From the NCBI GenBank assembly GCA_009268125.1, contig WBOU01000001.1:62001-126000 (forward strand): a DNA stretch of 64,000 nt, read 5' to 3'. Shown here piece by piece: positions 28,471-41,912 of the stretch. Made by a program: the position numbers and the translations under genes. This DNA is from Chloroflexia bacterium SDU3-3 (GTDB lineage: Bacteria > Chloroflexota > Chloroflexia > Chloroflexales > Roseiflexaceae). Numbering within the stretch: position 1 is the first letter of the stretch; every line of letters begins with the position of its first letter. The notes under the pieces were generated by a model, which saw only the letters and a program-made list of their open reading frames with translations, had not been told where the DNA came from and did no database searches.

Positions 28471-31400
28471 TCACCCGGCCCGCCGCTCGCGGAACTCCTG
28501 CGGGCCGATGCCGGTGATCTTGCGGAACACGCGGCTGAAGTAGGCGCGGTCCTGAAAGCCGACCTGCTGGGCGATTGTGCCGATGCTGTCGTTGCTCTGC
28601 TCTAGCCGCAGCTTGGCATGGTAGATGCGGTAGCGGCTCAGGTACTCCCAGGGCGAGACGCCGATCTCGCGGTGGAACACCCGGCTCAGGTAGTCCTCGC
28701 TCACGCCCACGCTCTGGGCCAGCTCCCAGCGCGATAGCTCGCGGGTGTAGTTCTGGTGCAGGTAGGCGATCGCACGCTTGACCAGGGCGCTGGTAGGCTG
28801 GGGCAGCATCTCGGCGTCGGCGATGGCGCGGCCCAGGGTGGTGGCCACCTCCTCGTCGGAGAACAGCCACTTGGTCTGGATGAACACGTGGGCGTGCTGC
28901 TCTAGCTGCTTCACGTCCTCCAGGGTTAGCAGCTTGTTGCTGATCACCACCACCGGCACGTGGCGCAGCCGCTCGCTGGTGCGCATCTGGGCCAGCACCT
29001 CGGTGCCGTCGATGTCGGGCATCAGCAGGTCGAGCACCACCAGGCTCGGCACCACATCGGCCAGCCGCTGAAGGGCCGCGCCGCCGTTCTCGGCCAGCAC
29101 GATCGGGTGGCTGGGCAGGGTCGCGGCGACAACCCGCTGGTAGTGGGCGCGGGCGGTGGGGTCATCATCCACGATCAGGATCGGGCCGCCAGCGGCGGCG
29201 GGCGCGATGGCGTTAATCGTGTCGATCAGCGACTGCGAGGGCGCATTCTTGAGCATGTAGCCGGTGAGGCCCTGCTCCTCGCCCAATGGGTCGGCTGGCT
29301 CGCCATACAGCAGGAAGGGGATGTGCCCCAGGCGCGGGTGGGCGTGCAGCCGCCGCAGCAGGCCCCAGCTCTCGGCATGAGCGCTGGATACATCCCAGGC
29401 CAGCGCGGCGGGCGCGGTGTCGCGCACGATCTGCTCGATCGGCTGATCGCCGCGCAGCCAGCGCACCTCCAGCCCCTCACGCTCGGCGAAGGCCACGATC
29501 TCGGGCGGCAGCTGCTCGCTGGGCGAGATCGCCAGCAGCGTGGGGGTGCCCACCGCCGTGGTGGCCACTTGCTCGCTCAGGCTGGGCAGCGGCAGGCGTA
29601 GGTCGAAGCTGCTGCCCACGCCAGGCGCGCTGGTCACATCCAGCGTGCCGCGGTGCAGCGCGATCAGCTGGCGGCTGATCGACAGCCCCAGACCGATCCC
29701 GCCGTAGTCGCGGCTGCGCTTCTCCGCCGTCACAAACGGCTCGAAGATCCGCTCCTGTTGGCCCTGGTCGATCCCGCTGCCGCTATCGGCCACCCACAGG
29801 TGCAGGTGCGGCGGCTGCACCTCGGCACCCAGCGTGATATGGCCGCGCTGGGTGAACTTGAGCGCGTTGCTCAGCAGGTTGAGCAGCACCTGGCGCAGCC
29901 GCAGCGGGTCGGCGTAGATCTTGGGCAGGCGCGGCGGTAGATCGAGCCGCCAGTCCAGATCCGGCTTGGCGTGGGCCTGCTCGGCCAGGCTAGCAAAGAC
30001 CTCCTCTAGCAGCGGGCGCGGGTCGATCAGCTCGGGGTAGAGATCCAGCTCGTTGATCTCAGCGCGCGAGAGATCTAGCAGGTCGTTGATCAGCCGCAGC
30101 TGGTGCTCGGCGCTGCGCTGGATGTGCTCAAGCGCCTGCGGGTCGTCGGGCGCTTCGGTCTGCACCAGCCGGGCCTGCTCAAGGATGATGTGCAGCGGCG
30201 TGCGCAGCTCGTGGCTCACGTTGGCCAGCAGCCGCGTCTTGATGCGGTCGGCCTTCTCGGCGGTCCGGCGGGCCTGCTGCTCGTCGCGCACCAGCAGCGC
30301 GCCCTTCACCGCGCTGGAGATCGAGCCGCGCAGCATCTCATACAGCTCGCCGTCGCGCGGGCCGATCTCCAGCATGCAGTAGCCCAGCTGCTGCTCGTGG
30401 AAAAACAGCGGCTCGACCACGTAGCTATGGCGGCGCGGCGGCAGCAGCGCGGCGGGCACCAGCACACCGGGCGAGAGCCGCAGCGGCTGCTCGCTCTCCA
30501 CCAGGGTGCCACCCTCGTGGAAGGCGAGGATGAGCTGGCGCTCGTCGTCGCAGGGGGAGGCCGGGTTGTCGTAGAGCGCCAGATAGCCGCTGACGATGCC
30601 GAGGCGCGGTAGATGCTCGGCCAGCGTGCGGGCCAGCGTGGGCAGGTCAAAGGTGGTGATCAGGCTCTGGGTCAGCGCGCGCAGCGCCGCCGCCCGGCGC
30701 TCGGCCTGGAGCTGCCGGAAGGCCAGGGCGCGCTGGGCGATCTCGCTGACCACGATCCGCGCCTGGCCGATAATGTCCTCGGCGGTGCGCCACTGGGATG
30801 GCTCTAGACCGGTGAGCACCGTGCTGCGCAGGGCCGAGAGCACATCCTGCCAGACCATGATCGACTCTTCGTGCTCGAATGAGGCATCCAGCATTCGCCC
30901 TAGCGCGGCCAGAAACCGCCCGGCGGGCGTGCGGATGTCGCGGTCGAGGCTGGCGCGCAACACCCCGGCGAGCTGCCGCGCCTGGGCGGGCGCGGCTGCC
31001 ACATGCAGCAGCTCGTCGATCAGGGCATCGTCGCCATGGCTATGGTGCACCCCAGCCTTGCGCACCGCGTCGGAGTGGCAGCCGCACGACTGGCGCACCA
31101 CCAGCCGCGACTGCAGCACGATCTGGCTTGGCACGATCCGCCCCTCCAGCCGCGCTAGCACGGTCTCCATGGCCCGCGCGCCCTGGGCCGCGATCGGCGT
31201 GGAGACCGAGGTGAGCGAGGGGTTGGCCAGGCGGCCCTCGGCGGAATCGTTGAATCCGATCACGGCGATGTCGTGCGGTACGAAGATCCCGCGCCCGTGC
31301 AGCTCCTTGATCGCGCCTAGCGCCATCAGGTCGCTCACCGCCACCACCGCCTGGAAGTGATCGCCGGGGAACAGCCCAGCCACATCCAGCAGGTGCGCCA

Positions 31401-31983
31401 TGGCTTCGCTGCCCCGCTCCCAGTGCAGCGGCGGGCTGACCAGGCGCTGGTCGAAGGGGATGTCGTAGGCGCTGAGCGCATCGCGGTAGGCGCGGTAGCG
31501 CTCCTCGGCGTAGAAGTGGCTGGCTGGCCCGCGCAGCAGCGCCAGCTTGCGGAAGCCATGCACCTCGATCAGGTGCACGATCGCGGCGTACATGCCGTCG
31601 TAGCTGTCGACCGATATGGTCGGCACGCCAGGCACCGATTGGGCGAGGTTCACCATGGGCAGCTGGTGGAAGCGGCGCTGAAAGGAGAGGATCGCCTCGG
31701 CCTCCAGCGAGCCGGTGATGGTCGATGACCAGCTGATCAGGCCATCCAGCCCGGCGTTGCTGGCAAGGTCGTAGACGACCATGCGCTGGGCCTCGGCCTC
31801 GGGCTGGCCCAACGTGCCCCCTGGGAAACACAGCAGGTTGACGCCCTCGCCCTCGGCGGCTTCGACGACGCCACGCCACATGACCTGGCCAGAGCCAACG
31901 TGGATGTTGGCCGTCAGGAAGCCTATGGCTTGCTGGTGGGGTGGGGCCACCGTGTTAGATTCAATCAGCGCATTGCGTTCCAT
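28471..31983 (-). CDS. Soluble hybrid sensor-regulator: LacI-like sensor, GAF-like, histidine kinase, receiver, AraC HTH
   Basis: 1170 residues without a clear membrane segment. Order: LacI/GalR-type periplasmic-binding fold (about 15-305, AIGFLTANIHVG to VVRQSCGC) without the LacI HTH; helical linker; GAF-like part (about 435-570); HisKA with LLANVSHELRTPLH (His near 591); HATPase with SNALKFTQRG, DSGSGIDQGQ and GIGLGLSIS; a degenerate receiver-like unit; a receiver with VVLDLLMPDIDG; and an AraC HTH (FQDRAYFSRVFRKITGIGPQEF). It likely senses a cytoplasmic sugar and activates transcription directly. ATG 31983 with GGAGACG was chosen over 32025. It lies upstream of the pectin import genes, so it is their probable regulator. 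Confidence 0.9.
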   Translation of the reverse strand: MERNALIESNTVAPPHQQAIGFLTANIHVGSGQVMWRGVVEAAEGEGVNLLCFPGGTLGQPEAEAQRMVVYDLASNAGLDGLISWSSTITGSLEAEAILSFQRRFHQLPMVNLAQSVPGVPTISVDSYDGMYAAIVHLIEVHGFRKLALLRGPASHFYAEERYRAYRDALSAYDIPFDQRLVSPPLHWERGSEAMAHLLDVAGLFPGDHFQAVVAVSDLMALGAIKELHGRGIFVPHDIAVIGFNDSAEGRLANPSLTSVSTPIAAQGARAMETVLARLEGRIVPSQIVLQSRLVVRQSCGCHSDAVRKAGVHHSHGDDALIDELLHVAAAPAQARQLAGVLRASLDRDIRTPAGRFLAALGRMLDASFEHEESIMVWQDVLSALRSTVLTGLEPSQWRTAEDIIGQARIVVSEIAQRALAFRQLQAERRAAALRALTQSLITTFDLPTLARTLAEHLPRLGIVSGYLALYDNPASPCDDERQLILAFHEGGTLVESEQPLRLSPGVLVPAALLPPRRHSYVVEPLFFHEQQLGYCMLEIGPRDGELYEMLRGSISSAVKGALLVRDEQQARRTAEKADRIKTRLLANVSHELRTPLHIILEQARLVQTEAPDDPQALEHIQRSAEHQLRLINDLLDLSRAEINELDLYPELIDPRPLLEEVFASLAEQAHAKPDLDWRLDLPPRLPKIYADPLRLRQVLLNLLSNALKFTQRGHITLGAEVQPPHLHLWVADSGSGIDQGQQERIFEPFVTAEKRSRDYGGIGLGLSISRQLIALHRGTLDVTSAPGVGSSFDLRLPLPSLSEQVATTAVGTPTLLAISPSEQLPPEIVAFAEREGLEVRWLRGDQPIEQIVRDTAPAALAWDVSSAHAESWGLLRRLHAHPRLGHIPFLLYGEPADPLGEEQGLTGYMLKNAPSQSLIDTINAIAPAAAGGPILIVDDDPTARAHYQRVVAATLPSHPIVLAENGGAALQRLADVVPSLVVLDLLMPDIDGTEVLAQMRTSERLRHVPVVVISNKLLTLEDVKQLEQHAHVFIQTKWLFSDEEVATTLGRAIADAEMLPQPTSALVKRAIAYLHQNYTRELSRWELAQSVGVSEDYLSRVFHREIGVSPWEYLSRYRIYHAKLRLEQSNDSIGTIAQQVGFQDRAYFSRVFRKITGIGPQEFRERRAG

Positions 31984-32027
31984 CGGTACGTCTCCATTGA
32001 CCCGTAGGTATGGCTGGTTGCGCACCT

Positions 32028-36774: not shown

Positions 36775-37878
36775 ATGCGTGCATTCTGGAACTGGGTGAC
36801 GACGGTTCACCATTCTCAGGCTGATACCCGCCGACGTAGCGCTACGCTTATTGTTATCTGCTGTGCGCTTGTTGTTATCTGCTTTATCGCATTCTTCCTC
36901 TTCATGGTGTTCAACGCGAATAGTATCGGTCAGATTCTCAGTCTGTCGTTCGCCGCGCTCACCGCATCAGTGGTGTTTATTGCGCGAAAGGGCTACTTTG
37001 CGGTTGCTGCCGGAATGCTCTTTGCGATCCTTCTGGCTGTCCCAACGGTGCCGATCATCCAGGGCCAGGGCATCAACGCCGAGCCGATCTACTATCTGAT
37101 GACCCCGCTGATCGCCGCGGTGATCCTGCGCCCGCGCTATATCTGGGCTATGACCGGCGTGACCATCGCGCTGATGTTTGTGGTGCTGACCAATATCCAG
37201 AAGAATCCGCTAGAAGATCGGCACGGGCAGGCGCTGGTGCGCAACGTGCTGATCGTGGCTGGTGTAGCGGCCCTGGCCGGCACCGTGAGCGCAAGAAATA
37301 CGAGCAAGGCGCTCAATACCGCAGAAAGCTCGCGCGCCGAGCTAGAGCAGACCGCCCGCGAGCTAGAGCAGATCAACATCGACCTAGAGCAGCGCGTGTC
37401 CGAGCGCACCACCTTGCTGGCCAGCAACCTGCGCATAGCGCAGGAGCGCGAGGAAGAGCTGCGCAAGATCGTGGCCGAGAACGAGCAGCAGCGCATGATC
37501 ATCCGCGAGATGAGCGTGCCGATCATCCCGATCTCCGAGACCACCTGCGTGATGCCGCTGATCGGGGCGCTCGACACTAGCCGGATCGCGCAGGTGCAGG
37601 AGCAGGCGCTGCGGGCCCTCCAGCACAGCCGCGCGCGCCGACTCATCCTCGATATCACTGGCGTGCCGGTAGTGGATACCCAGGTAGCCCAGGGGTTCAT
37701 GAAGGTGGTGCAGGCCGCGCGGCTGCTGGGTGCCGAGGTGCTGCTGGTGGGCATCCGCCCCGAGGTGGCGCAATCGATCATCGGGCTGGGGGTGGATCTG
37801 CACGATATCCAGACCTACAGTGATCTCCAGCTGGCGCTGAGCCAGCAGCCGCTTGCGCAGCGGGTAGCTCGGGCATAG
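36775..37878 (+). CDS. RsbR-like STAS-domain regulator with membrane sensor
   Basis: 367 residues: about six hydrophobic segments (residues ~25-170) form an integral membrane sensor, a coiled coil follows (~185-245, rich in Glu/Gln), and a STAS domain ends the chain (~250-360; SVPIIPISETTCVMPLIGALD, LILDITGVPVVDTQVAQGFM). This is the layout of RsbR/stressosome-type anti-sigma antagonist proteins in which the STAS unit is controlled by phosphorylation. The phosphorylatable Ser/Thr position has Thr in DITGVPVVDTQVA. No kinase partner (RsbT) is adjacent. AGGAG lies 13 bases ahead of the ATG. Confidence 0.82.
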   Translation: MRAFWNWVTTVHHSQADTRRRSATLIVICCALVVICFIAFFLFMVFNANSIGQILSLSFAALTASVVFIARKGYFAVAAGMLFAILLAVPTVPIIQGQGINAEPIYYLMTPLIAAVILRPRYIWAMTGVTIALMFVVLTNIQKNPLEDRHGQALVRNVLIVAGVAALAGTVSARNTSKALNTAESSRAELEQTARELEQINIDLEQRVSERTTLLASNLRIAQEREEELRKIVAENEQQRMIIREMSVPIIPISETTCVMPLIGALDTSRIAQVQEQALRALQHSRARRLILDITGVPVVDTQVAQGFMKVVQAARLLGAEVLLVGIRPEVAQSIIGLGVDLHDIQTYSDLQLALSQQPLAQRVARA

Positions 37879-38020
37879 CTTGGCGGCCCGTGGCATAGCT
37901 TTTGCTTTATGGGGTGGCAGATATGTGATGATCGCGGCGGTCATCTGACCATGCTGGGAAGCATTGTCAACCTACAGAAAACTGCACGTCGCCCTCAAAC
38001 GCGTTTGCGTTATCCCCTCC

Positions 38021-38055
38021 AGCAGCGGCCCGCTTGGCCGCTGCTGTTCTTCTTT
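38021..38055. terminator. Intrinsic terminator between STAS and hypothetical genes
   Basis: AGCAGCGGCC (38021-38030) pairs with GGCCGCTGCT (38036-38045), then GTTCTTCTTTTC in the plus direction. Confidence 0.8.
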
Positions 38056-38056
38056 T

Positions 38057-38563
38057 CTAGGGTAGTACGCCCGCCTTCTCGCGTAGGCAGTGCGCCGCCT
38101 GATCGCGGATGTAGGACTCGTAGGATAGGGGTGCGCTCCCCAGCGCGCGGATCGCCGCTTGGTGTTGCTCGGTCAGCCAGATAGGTTGGGCAAGCAGCGT
38201 GCGCCAGAGCTGAATCGCATGGCGCTGCTCGGCGTGGTACCTCGTCGGGTTGGTCGCGGCCAGCTCCCAGATGGCGGTGGCATACCACAGCTGGGCGTAG
38301 CTGTCGCCTTGGCTGGCCTGCGCCGTCAGCAGCGGTAGCGCCTCGGTGGCCTCGGCGTACCACAGGTGCTGCAGCGCCCCTAGGTCATCGCAGGAGAGCA
38401 GCGCGCACCAGTGCTCGATGAACTCGGCGCGCCATGCCTGCTCTTGCTCGCGGCTGACATGGTAGCTCTGGTAGGTCTCATATACCCCGTCGTGGGCCAT
38501 AAAAAAGGCTCGGCAGTCGTAGCTGAAGAAGAGCTCTTTTGCCGCTTGTAGTGATGTACGCAT
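38057..38563 (-). CDS. Hypothetical protein downstream of the GRAS gene
   Basis: 168 residues, mostly helical by composition, rich in Ala, Trp, Tyr and Gln; no signal peptide, membrane segment or known motif. The middle (LPLLTAQASQGDSYAQLWYATAIWEL) has the A/G-Y-A spacing of tetratricopeptide or Sel1-like helical repeats, but only about one and a half repeat units can be seen. It starts 8 bases after the GRAS-protein stop codon, so the two are co-transcribed and possibly translationally linked. The function is unknown; a partner or scaffold role for the GRAS protein is a guess from the arrangement. Confidence 0.7.
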   Translation of the reverse strand: MRTSLQAAKELFFSYDCRAFFMAHDGVYETYQSYHVSREQEQAWRAEFIEHWCALLSCDDLGALQHLWYAEATEALPLLTAQASQGDSYAQLWYATAIWELAATNPTRYHAEQRHAIQLWRTLLAQPIWLTEQHQAAIRALGSAPLSYESYIRDQAAHCLREKAGVLP

Positions 38564-38571
38564 AGCGTTCT

Positions 38572-39753
38572 TTATGGCCTCTCTCTACGCCATGCCGATG
38601 CGGCGATAAGCGGGATATCTTCCCAGCGTAGCACCAGCGCGCCGTTTTCGGTGGTGGCATAGGTACCCAAAGGGCTGGCGAGTGTTTTATTTACATAATA
38701 TTCATGTGTGTGCAGCGACACCTGCTGGAAACCCTGGGCCTGCAGGCGGCGCACCCAGGCCCGCCAGCGCTCGTGGCGCTGCGTGCGATCTGCACCCTCG
38801 CAGGTGACCACGTTGTGGATCTCGTGTCCGAGCATTGCCTGCTCTATTCCCCAGCGCTCGGGCATCGAGGCAGGGAAGTAGCTCTGCAAGACCTCGAACA
38901 TGCCCCGATAGTAGTACCACGATGCGCTGATGCGGGCGCTGAAGGGCAGCGCGTTGTGCTCCACATCCGGCTCAACCAAGGTCATGAGGCGTGGCCGCAG
39001 CCGCGCGATGTCGCGCAGCATGGTATCGCGCGGCTGGCGAGGTATCGATGCCGCATCGTCGGCGGCAATGTGGTGCAGGGCAAACGCCGCGTTGACGATC
39101 GGTGCTGGTCCTGCCAGCGCTTGCACGGTGGGCGCTGGCAGCTGGCCCTGTGCTGCATCGACCTCACGGTAGCTGAGATTTATGCCTAACTCTTCTGCGC
39201 ATGACATAAGCGATCTGCGTATATCATCGCGACGATAGGGGGATGGGTACAGCCCGGGGATCGGGAGCCGCACCCCGATGATCTGTACGGACTGGGGCCT
39301 CAGCGGAGCATGGGCCAGTAGCTGCAAGAGGTGCACCCATTGCCATGGCCCATCGATACCAATGTCAACAATGCTCATGTCCTTGGCACCCATAAGCGCG
39401 CGTAGGATAGCCGCATTCGCGCTCGCATAGCCAAACAGCCGAAACGGTGCTATCTCCAGCCACGCTTGGGCCGCCCGGCTCGCCAGATCGTCGGAAAGCA
39501 CGGGCAGGTGTGTTTCGGCGGTCGGCAGCATACGAGCAAGGAGGCTCCGGGCAAACAGATAGGCGAGCCGCTCCTCGGGGGTTGCCTGGGGGTGGGGTGG
39601 CGCGAGGAAGGGCTGGATGAGCACGTAGGCCGTGGCAGTATCGCCCTGCGCGAGTGCGTGTGCTGCATCTTGGATGTGAGCCTGAGCTTCGGTGCGCATA
39701 GGGTGTGCGGGTCTCTCTATCCAATCGGCCTGCTGTTCAAATCCGAAAGCCAT
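38572..39753 (-). CDS. Bacterial GRAS-domain protein (Rossmann methyltransferase-like)
   Basis: 393 residues that follow plant GRAS proteins motif by motif. LHR-like WLEIAPFRLFGYASANAAIL (98-117), the VHIID-like SIVDIGIDGPWQW (127-139), FALHHIAADD (224-233), LRPRLMTLVEPDVEHN (252-267), then a PFYRE/SAW-like end with GHEIHNVVTCEGADRTQRHE (309-328) and GFQQVSL. Bacterial GRAS proteins were described by Aravind's group as Rossmann-fold methyltransferase relatives that may bind small molecules; the ligand is unknown. The N-terminal ~95 residues are helical. The start has AGGGG nine bases ahead; Met19 (39699) is an alternative. First gene of a two-gene unit. Confidence 0.85.
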   Translation of the reverse strand: MAFGFEQQADWIERPAHPMRTEAQAHIQDAAHALAQGDTATAYVLIQPFLAPPHPQATPEERLAYLFARSLLARMLPTAETHLPVLSDDLASRAAQAWLEIAPFRLFGYASANAAILRALMGAKDMSIVDIGIDGPWQWVHLLQLLAHAPLRPQSVQIIGVRLPIPGLYPSPYRRDDIRRSLMSCAEELGINLSYREVDAAQGQLPAPTVQALAGPAPIVNAAFALHHIAADDAASIPRQPRDTMLRDIARLRPRLMTLVEPDVEHNALPFSARISASWYYYRGMFEVLQSYFPASMPERWGIEQAMLGHEIHNVVTCEGADRTQRHERWRAWVRRLQAQGFQQVSLHTHEYYVNKTLASPLGTYATTENGALVLRWEDIPLIAASAWRRERP

Positions 39754-40193: not shown

Positions 40194-40222
40194 TTGACAG
40201 TCACGCCGTTGAACGATATAAT
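40194..40222 (+). promoter_or_regulatory. Consensus sigma-70 promoter
   Basis: TTGACA (40194-40199), exactly 17 bases, TATAAT (40217-40222). This is the best promoter match in the window. Transcription would start near 40229, leaving a leader of about 385 bases before the GAF-PAS gene. Confidence 0.8.
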
Positions 40223-40228
40223 TTTATC

Positions 40229-40613
40229 AGTTTCTCTGCTTGTTTACTTATAAACATGCGGCAAGTATGCCGCCAAGCTATGCCGCTCCACCAATGCCGC
40301 TGTTGGCACCCGCTGTGAGGCTCCCCCGCCTGCCCTCACAACCGACAGCCTACCATACGCACACATCACGTCTCGGGGGAAACGCCATGGCTCCATTCTA
40401 ACAACCTCGTTCTACGTCTTCGGCGTAGACAGCCCATCCTCCTCTGATCGGCTATAGGGAGAATCGCACCATGTCATCATGCCCTTATCTCCCAATAGGC
40501 TCTATCGCACATCCCTAAGCACTACAGAGAGGCACCTGTACGATCCGTGTCCCACATCTACCTCTCATCCGACGGATCTCGTAGATCGATGCGCGCTGCG
40601 CCATGCAAAGGGA
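40229..40613 (+). other. Long structured 5' leader, possible regulatory RNA
   Basis: Several small hairpins follow one another: GCGGCA-AGTA-TGCCGC near 40259, TGTGAGG paired with CCTCACA around 40314-40344, and a CTACG-stem capped by a TCTTCG loop near 40413. No known riboswitch class could be assigned by eye. A 15-codon out-of-frame mini-ORF (40471-40518) with a good SD lies inside. Confidence 0.4.
40471..40518 (+). CDS. Possible 15-residue leader peptide
   Basis: ATG 40471 is eight bases after AGGGAGA, the only good ribosome-binding site in the leader. It encodes MSSCPYLPIGSIAHP and stops at TAA, out of frame with the GAF-PAS gene. It may be a leader peptide; there is no independent evidence. 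Confidence 0.25.
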   Translation: MSSCPYLPIGSIAHP

Positions 40614-41912
40614 ATGCGGTACATTGCTATGGAAGCAACATTCATCTCAACAACCTTTCCTGCCCATCCACCATCCTCGTCCGACACCTTCACCGATGCC
40701 AGCTACGAGCGCATGATGCGGCTTGCATCCGATTTCTTCCACACCCCAGTTGCTGCGATCACGCTATACCCGCACGGCCACCAGTGGCTGAATATCGCGC
40801 GTGGATTCGCGCCCATCCCCTTTCACGCCGCCTACGCATTTGGCATGCAGGCCGCGCGCGCCTCCGACACCATCATCGTGCCCGATCTGCGCAGCGACAC
40901 GCGGTTCCAGAATCACCCGCTCCTGCGCTATGCCAGCCACCTGCGTTTCTATGCCGGCATGCCGCTGCGCGATGCCCAGGGCAAGGTGCTGGGCGGGCTA
41001 TGGCTGGCCGATGATGCACCGCGCCACACACCGGCCACCGCGCTGACCCAGCTGCGGGCATTCAGCTCCTGGGTGCGCTCCGAGCTGCACCACCCGATCG
41101 AGCGCCTTGTGCCTCCCCCAACCCCCAAGTACATGAACCGGCAGCAGTTCCAGACGCTACAGACCATGTATGGCGTGGGCCTGATCGTACAGGATCGCGA
41201 TGGCCAGATCTGTGCATGCGACCCCTACGCCGAATATATCCTGGGCCTCTCCGCCGATCAGATCCGGGGGCGCAAAGGCATCGACTTCTACTGGCAGTCC
41301 ATCCACAGCGATGGCCGACCCTTCCCCGGCGAGACCCACCCGGCGTCGCGGGCGCTGCGCACCGGCATCCCACAATCCGACATCATGGGTGTCTACAAGC
41401 TGAATGGACGGATCACATGGATCGCCGTTCGCTCGCTGCCGCTCTGGCGCCCCGACGAGCTGCACCCCTATGCGGTGATCTCATCGCTGATCGACATCAC
41501 CGAGCAGCAGACCCAGATGCATGTGCTTGAGCACGACCCAGGCTTCACCCACTCATGCGATCCCACCGCCAGCATCGTCGAGGAGATCCGCGCCGATGTG
41601 CAGCAGGCCCAGCAGGCCGAGATCTCGTTCTCGGTGGTGCAGTTCACCTTCCCCTCGCTGGCCCAGCAAGGCGAGACCGCCTGCTGCGCTATCCGCGAGC
41701 TGGCCGATCTGCTCAAGCCCAAGCTGCCATGCACCGATCTGGTAGTGGTAATGGACGACGCTCAGCTGATGATCGTGATGCCACAGACCGACGAAATCAC
41801 CGCATACCGCCGCGCCGAGCAGGTGCGCCGCTTTTTGGCTGTCCCCCCCACCCCGCACCTGCCATGCCACACGTGGTTCGCGGTGACAACGATGCGGGGC
41901 AATGTGCAGTAG
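40614..41912 (+). CDS. GAF-PAS sensor protein with degenerate GGDEF-like C-terminus
   Basis: About 430 residues. GAF domain (about 15-165: ASYERMMRLASDFFHTPVAAITL, IVPDLRSDTRFQNHPLL, FYAGMPLRDAQGKVLGGLWL), PAS domain (about 185-300: GVGLIVQDRDGQICACDPYA with C-terminal PAC strand VRSLPLWRPDE), then ~100 residues whose end (LVVVMDDAQLMIVMPQTDE) aligns with GGDEF domains. The GGDEF signature is replaced by MDDAQ, so it should not make c-di-GMP. No HTH or kinase is present. The start is uncertain: ATG 40614 directly follows AAAGGGA, ATG 40629 is farther, and the frame is open to 40479. It lies upstream of the YesN/YesM pair, separated by a 30-bp hairpin. Confidence 0.75.
   Translation: MRYIAMEATFISTTFPAHPPSSSDTFTDASYERMMRLASDFFHTPVAAITLYPHGHQWLNIARGFAPIPFHAAYAFGMQAARASDTIIVPDLRSDTRFQNHPLLRYASHLRFYAGMPLRDAQGKVLGGLWLADDAPRHTPATALTQLRAFSSWVRSELHHPIERLVPPPTPKYMNRQQFQTLQTMYGVGLIVQDRDGQICACDPYAEYILGLSADQIRGRKGIDFYWQSIHSDGRPFPGETHPASRALRTGIPQSDIMGVYKLNGRITWIAVRSLPLWRPDELHPYAVISSLIDITEQQTQMHVLEHDPGFTHSCDPTASIVEEIRADVQQAQQAEISFSVVQFTFPSLAQQGETACCAIRELADLLKPKLPCTDLVVVMDDAQLMIVMPQTDEITAYRRAEQVRRFLAVPPTPHLPCHTWFAVTTMRGNVQ

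Follow-up and report, generated by a model that had tools for sequence, protein, structure and literature searches.

A full-length plant-type GRAS protein with an altered AdoMet-binding site, followed by a small gene of possible immunity-protein kinship, in a Chloroflexota genome

The window analysed here is a 64,000-nucleotide stretch of contig WBOU01000001.1 of Chloroflexia bacterium SDU3-3, and all positions given below are positions within it. Two genes on the minus strand occupy 38057–39753. Both frames have the coordinates and strand that an earlier, sequence-only reading assigned to them, the shorter frame beginning 8 bases past the stop codon of the longer one. The features of the locus are:

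38572–39753, minus strand: GRAS-domain protein of 393 residues, full-length and plant-type (Pfam PF03514; plant SCL3 and DELLA)
39337–39366, minus strand: motif I / VHIID position, residues 130–139, DIGIDGPWQW; by alignment, two of the three AdoMet-loop glycines are replaced by D and P
39268–39270, minus strand: Arg162 closing strand 2, the AdoMet ribose position; by alignment, Glu in a second Chloroflexota protein (L004) and Asp in Skermanella
38794–38802, minus strand: CEG within the conserved GRAS stretch EIHNVVTCEGADRTQRHE; by alignment, common to plants and L004 and missing in Skermanella
38590–38598, minus strand: C-terminal SAW tripeptide, by alignment a literal match to plants
38057–38563, minus strand: acidic protein of 168 residues (pI 5.5), probably all-helical, putatively a distant member of an immunity-like family (Mycobacterium avium match, HMM and structure model)

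The GRAS frame starts with ATG behind a ribosome-binding-like AGGGGT and ends in TAA, and the 8 bases AGAACGCT separate this stop from the ATG of the 168-residue frame. Because the two genes run in the same direction and lie 8 bases apart, they are probably co-transcribed. The pair sits between a convergent STAS-domain gene (36775–37878) and a divergent GAF/PAS gene (40479–41912), beyond which lie genes for a response regulator carrying an AraC-type helix-turn-helix domain, for a histidine kinase and for a sugar ABC-transporter-like set; these neighbours suggest a signalling role for the GRAS protein. A perfect sigma-70 consensus (TTGACA-17-TATAAT) is present upstream of the GAF/PAS gene on the plus strand (40194–40222). 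Just past the 3′ end of the 168-residue gene, an 11-pair stem with a T-rich tail (38020–38046, plus strand) is terminator-like on the plus strand and could serve the convergent STAS gene.

The 393-residue protein had been called a GRAS protein from its sequence, and the PF03514 profile search upheld this with a significant match of 221 bits (E = 2.8e-65, profile positions 6–374 of 374; Pfam cut-off, 27 bits). Its sequence matches in the PDB are plant GRAS domains only, with SCL3 at 3.9e-33 and DELLA at about 1e-30, and the whole domain aligns with SCL3 and RGA/DELLA proteins (structures 6kpd and 9lum) at 27–28% identity. In a co-linear, whole-length alignment with RGA and SCL3, the LHRI, VHIID, LHRII, PFYRE and SAW regions all occur in order, in agreement with the LHR1, VHIID and SAW-like regions reported earlier. 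The LHRI helices, VNAAFALHH and LVEPDVEHN are recognisable in this alignment, the VHIID position reads SIVDIGIDGPWQW, and N314, CEG 318–320, R323, R326 and H327 of the conserved CEGxxRxxRH element, W333 and the end of SAW are among the residues also present in plants. Judged by its sequence, the protein is a genuine full-length member of the GRAS family. It differs from DELLA proteins in having no long N-terminal regulatory extension, and from plant GRAS proteins in its bacterial setting, without a known zinc-finger partner. The Rossmann methyltransferase fold proposed for it earlier is to be expected from homology to the solved plant GRAS structures, whereas the protein's own model (pLDDT 43, low confidence, from a two-row alignment) adds no weight. 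A Foldseek search with this poor model ranked GRAS first at a TM of only about 0.3, and we excluded that ranking as independent evidence.

Two elements of the AdoMet-binding signature are missing from the window protein: the DxGxGxG loop after strand 1, which reads DIGIDGP, and the acidic residue closing strand 2, which is Arg162. D130, G132 and the LHH(I) motif after strand 4 are retained. At the loop position the other proteins read DIGIGMGTQW (L004), DFSMNQGLQW (RGA), DLDASEPAQW (SCL3) and DIGIGHG or DVGIGNG (Skermanella), and strand 2 ends in Gly in RGA and in His in SCL3. The window protein departs from the signature at positions where plant GRAS proteins depart too. In L004 and in the two Skermanella proteins the class I methyltransferase signature is intact, DIGIGMG or D[IV]GIG[HN]G followed by Glu or Asp. 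What is new here, as read from the alignment, is a bacterial GRAS protein altered at the AdoMet positions, unlike the other bacterial copies examined; the earlier, sequence-only reading does not mention this change. Three positions compared across four bacterial sequences suggest that AdoMet binding has been lost in the window protein; certain methyltransferases deviate from the glycine consensus.

GRAS proteins had been described as rare in bacteria, and for Chloroflexota this is borne out. The window genome holds a single copy, and the gene was found in 2/158 genomes of the organism's class, 2/82 of its order and 0/47 of another Chloroflexota class (centred on G366). An evenly drawn sample of 400 genomes of the phylum returned the same two genomes above the cut-off together with one low-scoring match (L003), which we rejected as false: it falls below the family cut-off, spans 79 profile positions with an internal stop and lies in no GRAS-like frame. 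The second Chloroflexota gene belongs to Herpetosiphonaceae bacterium OHK22 (JABXJS010000127.1, L002/L004), of the same order, and its product shares length and motifs with the window protein at 32–33% identity. Among the plasmids scanned, Skermanella alone matched, with annotated GRAS genes on plasmids of S. mucosa and S. rosea (WP_202684580.1 and WP_203101398.1; 117–118 bits to PF03514); the viral contigs and phages scanned gave no match. The Skermanella proteins are 22% identical to the window protein and lack CEG..RH and SAW, with the AdoMet signature intact. Like the window gene, theirs have a histidine kinase and a response regulator close by; in both (L013, 7941–9059; L014, 7674–8792) the GRAS gene faces a hybrid PAS histidine kinase gene in convergent orientation, and the response regulator lies beyond that gene.

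Pairwise profile scores of the window protein are 139 bits to L004, 128 to plant SCL3, 104 to RGA and 51–58 to Skermanella. The bacterial comparison covers four proteins (n = 4: the window protein, L004 and the two from Skermanella). One bacterial GRAS subgroup has been described as having a plant-like motif structure and grouping with plants (recent review, PMC12448838), and the sequences of the window and L004 proteins fit this description. A six-sequence tree was set aside as a means of placing the window protein relative to plants, since all three groupings of the window protein, L004 and plants fall inside the 95% set. The sporadic occurrence of GRAS genes points to horizontal movement, and the window gene was probably acquired in this way. 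Codon usage was rejected as a sign of foreign origin: the score of the GRAS gene is low, yet inside the range of the genes in the window.

The 168-residue frame looks coding by composition, with neighbour-like GC by codon position (0.66/0.46/0.81) and a codon-usage score of 0.24 against −0.40 to 0.19 in the other five frames. A weak single-sequence structure model (pLDDT 57.6) is all helix. Pfam, NCBIfam, PHROGs, PADLOC and the PDB gave nothing that matches the protein, and searches with the single sequence and with a three-row profile brought up no credible relative, either among 60 close relatives or among the 400 phylum genomes; weak matches among the relatives were discounted, many of them containing stops and those at L007 and L015 looking like chance. 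A plasmid search returned one relative, a 164-residue protein encoded on a plasmid of M. avium (40% over 50 residues, E = 3e-4), whose gene adjoins an SseB-domain gene. This protein in turn matches a 172-residue protein of Leptotrichia wadei (WP_146965059.1), the gene for which overlaps the end of a filamentous-hemagglutinin-domain gene by 1 base on its plasmid. Directly behind a filamentous-hemagglutinin (CdiA/FHA-type) gene is where a CDI immunity gene usually lies. A profile built from the M. avium and L. wadei proteins scores the 168-residue protein at 37.8 bits, the best of 5000 shuffles reaching 12.5, and at the level of sequence the kinship of its N-terminal 50 residues with these proteins is real. 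A further member of the family, sharing 84% identity with the L. wadei protein, occurs in Leptotrichia-type DNA on an IMG/VR contig (L026, 3341–7762), within an array of several small, helical-looking paralogs that looks like an immunity-gene array.

The explanation we favour joins a horizontally acquired GRAS protein, serving as a binding module without AdoMet, to an orphan immunity-type neighbour, and as a whole it has about an even chance of being correct. A plant-type GRAS protein would keep the GRAS/methyltransferase fold and the conserved residues of the family without a working AdoMet site, and would act as a non-catalytic binding module like plant GRAS proteins. The core cavity would bind a small molecule, or the helical cap and core groove would bind a protein, and binding would be coupled to a regulatory output within the signalling-gene neighbourhood. 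The 168-residue gene, probably co-transcribed, would carry an N-terminal module from an immunity-protein-like family. Taken by itself, a non-catalytic, binding-only role for the GRAS protein is on balance the probable one, by a modest degree. According to a review (PMC5873383), plant GRAS domains lack the SAM-binding motifs, keep a large core cavity and bound neither SAM nor SAH by calorimetry, which indicates that the GRAS fold can persist without the cofactor.

These plant data, from proteins altered at the same positions, also weigh against the view that the window protein is an active small-molecule methyltransferase whose AdoMet loop has diverged and still functions. That view draws on the retained fold, D130, G132 and LHHI motif, on the full signature carried by the relatives L004 and Skermanella, and on the proposal of Zhang, Iyer and Aravind (2012), in the summary given by PMC5012262, that bacterial GRAS proteins are all likely small-molecule methylases. 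With two of the three motif-I glycines and the strand-2 acid replaced by D, P and R, we regard catalysis as doubtful, and the window protein looks, from its sequence, like an exception to the proposal. The sequence-only reading had suggested the 168-residue protein as a dedicated partner, and a two-component complex of this kind, with the small protein as a lineage-specific cap or antagonist, would suit the shared strand, the 8-base spacing, the predicted helical structure and the dimers and protein partners through which plant GRAS proteins work (PMC5873383). The partner gene is missing, however, beside 3/3 of the other GRAS genes examined (HMM search of L004, L013 and L014), it has no credible relative in the 60 relatives or the sampled Chloroflexota genomes, and the relatives that were found occur without GRAS. 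These comparisons do not support the claim of a dedicated partner, and we judge such a complex, also as a lineage-specific interaction, unlikely. A toxin-immunity pair with GRAS as the toxin would account for the gene order and spacing, which resemble such pairs, and the Leptotrichia relative of the small protein occupies a position of that type. The GRAS domain spans the entire protein, however, leaving no space for a delivery domain, PADLOC gave no match, and no relative of the 168-residue gene adjoins the GRAS genes of L004 or Skermanella. To our knowledge GRAS is not a toxin domain, and this pairing is very improbable.

The best reading of the 168-residue gene, held tentatively and at somewhat under an even chance, is a stray immunity-like gene. 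It resembles the L. wadei protein, in its CdiI position, in size and in the N-terminal 50-residue motif, and differs in following a GRAS gene with no toxin gene noticed alongside; no cognate toxin of its own appeared among the neighbours scanned by Pfam, the nearest upstream gene being GRAS. Orphan immunity genes without a toxin have been described (PMC9086364). The immunity reading draws on about 50 residues and one overlapping Leptotrichia arrangement, the mycobacterial locus being uninformative, and favours an acquired, orphan gene of the immunity type over an obligate subunit of GRAS.

GRAS genes are held to have moved from soil bacteria into the ancestor of land plants. That the AdoMet-less form arose in bacteria before this transfer, with the window protein standing for the bacterial lineage closest to plant GRAS, would be an improbable history; the six-sequence tree weakly favours a grouping of the window protein with plant GRAS, with the other groupings inside the 95% set. 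If it were true, plants would have inherited an already non-catalytic binding module rather than converting an enzyme. We met no experimental tests of bacterial GRAS function in the literature searched. As the window protein has lost the signature and L004, from the same order, has it intact, the question of enzyme versus binding module is directly testable, and the contrast bears on the timing of the loss of enzyme activity in plants.

A further signalling gene of the window, on the minus strand at 28471–32025, encodes an 1184-residue hybrid sensor that combines periplasmic sugar-binding, histidine kinase, receiver and AraC helix-turn-helix regions in one protein.
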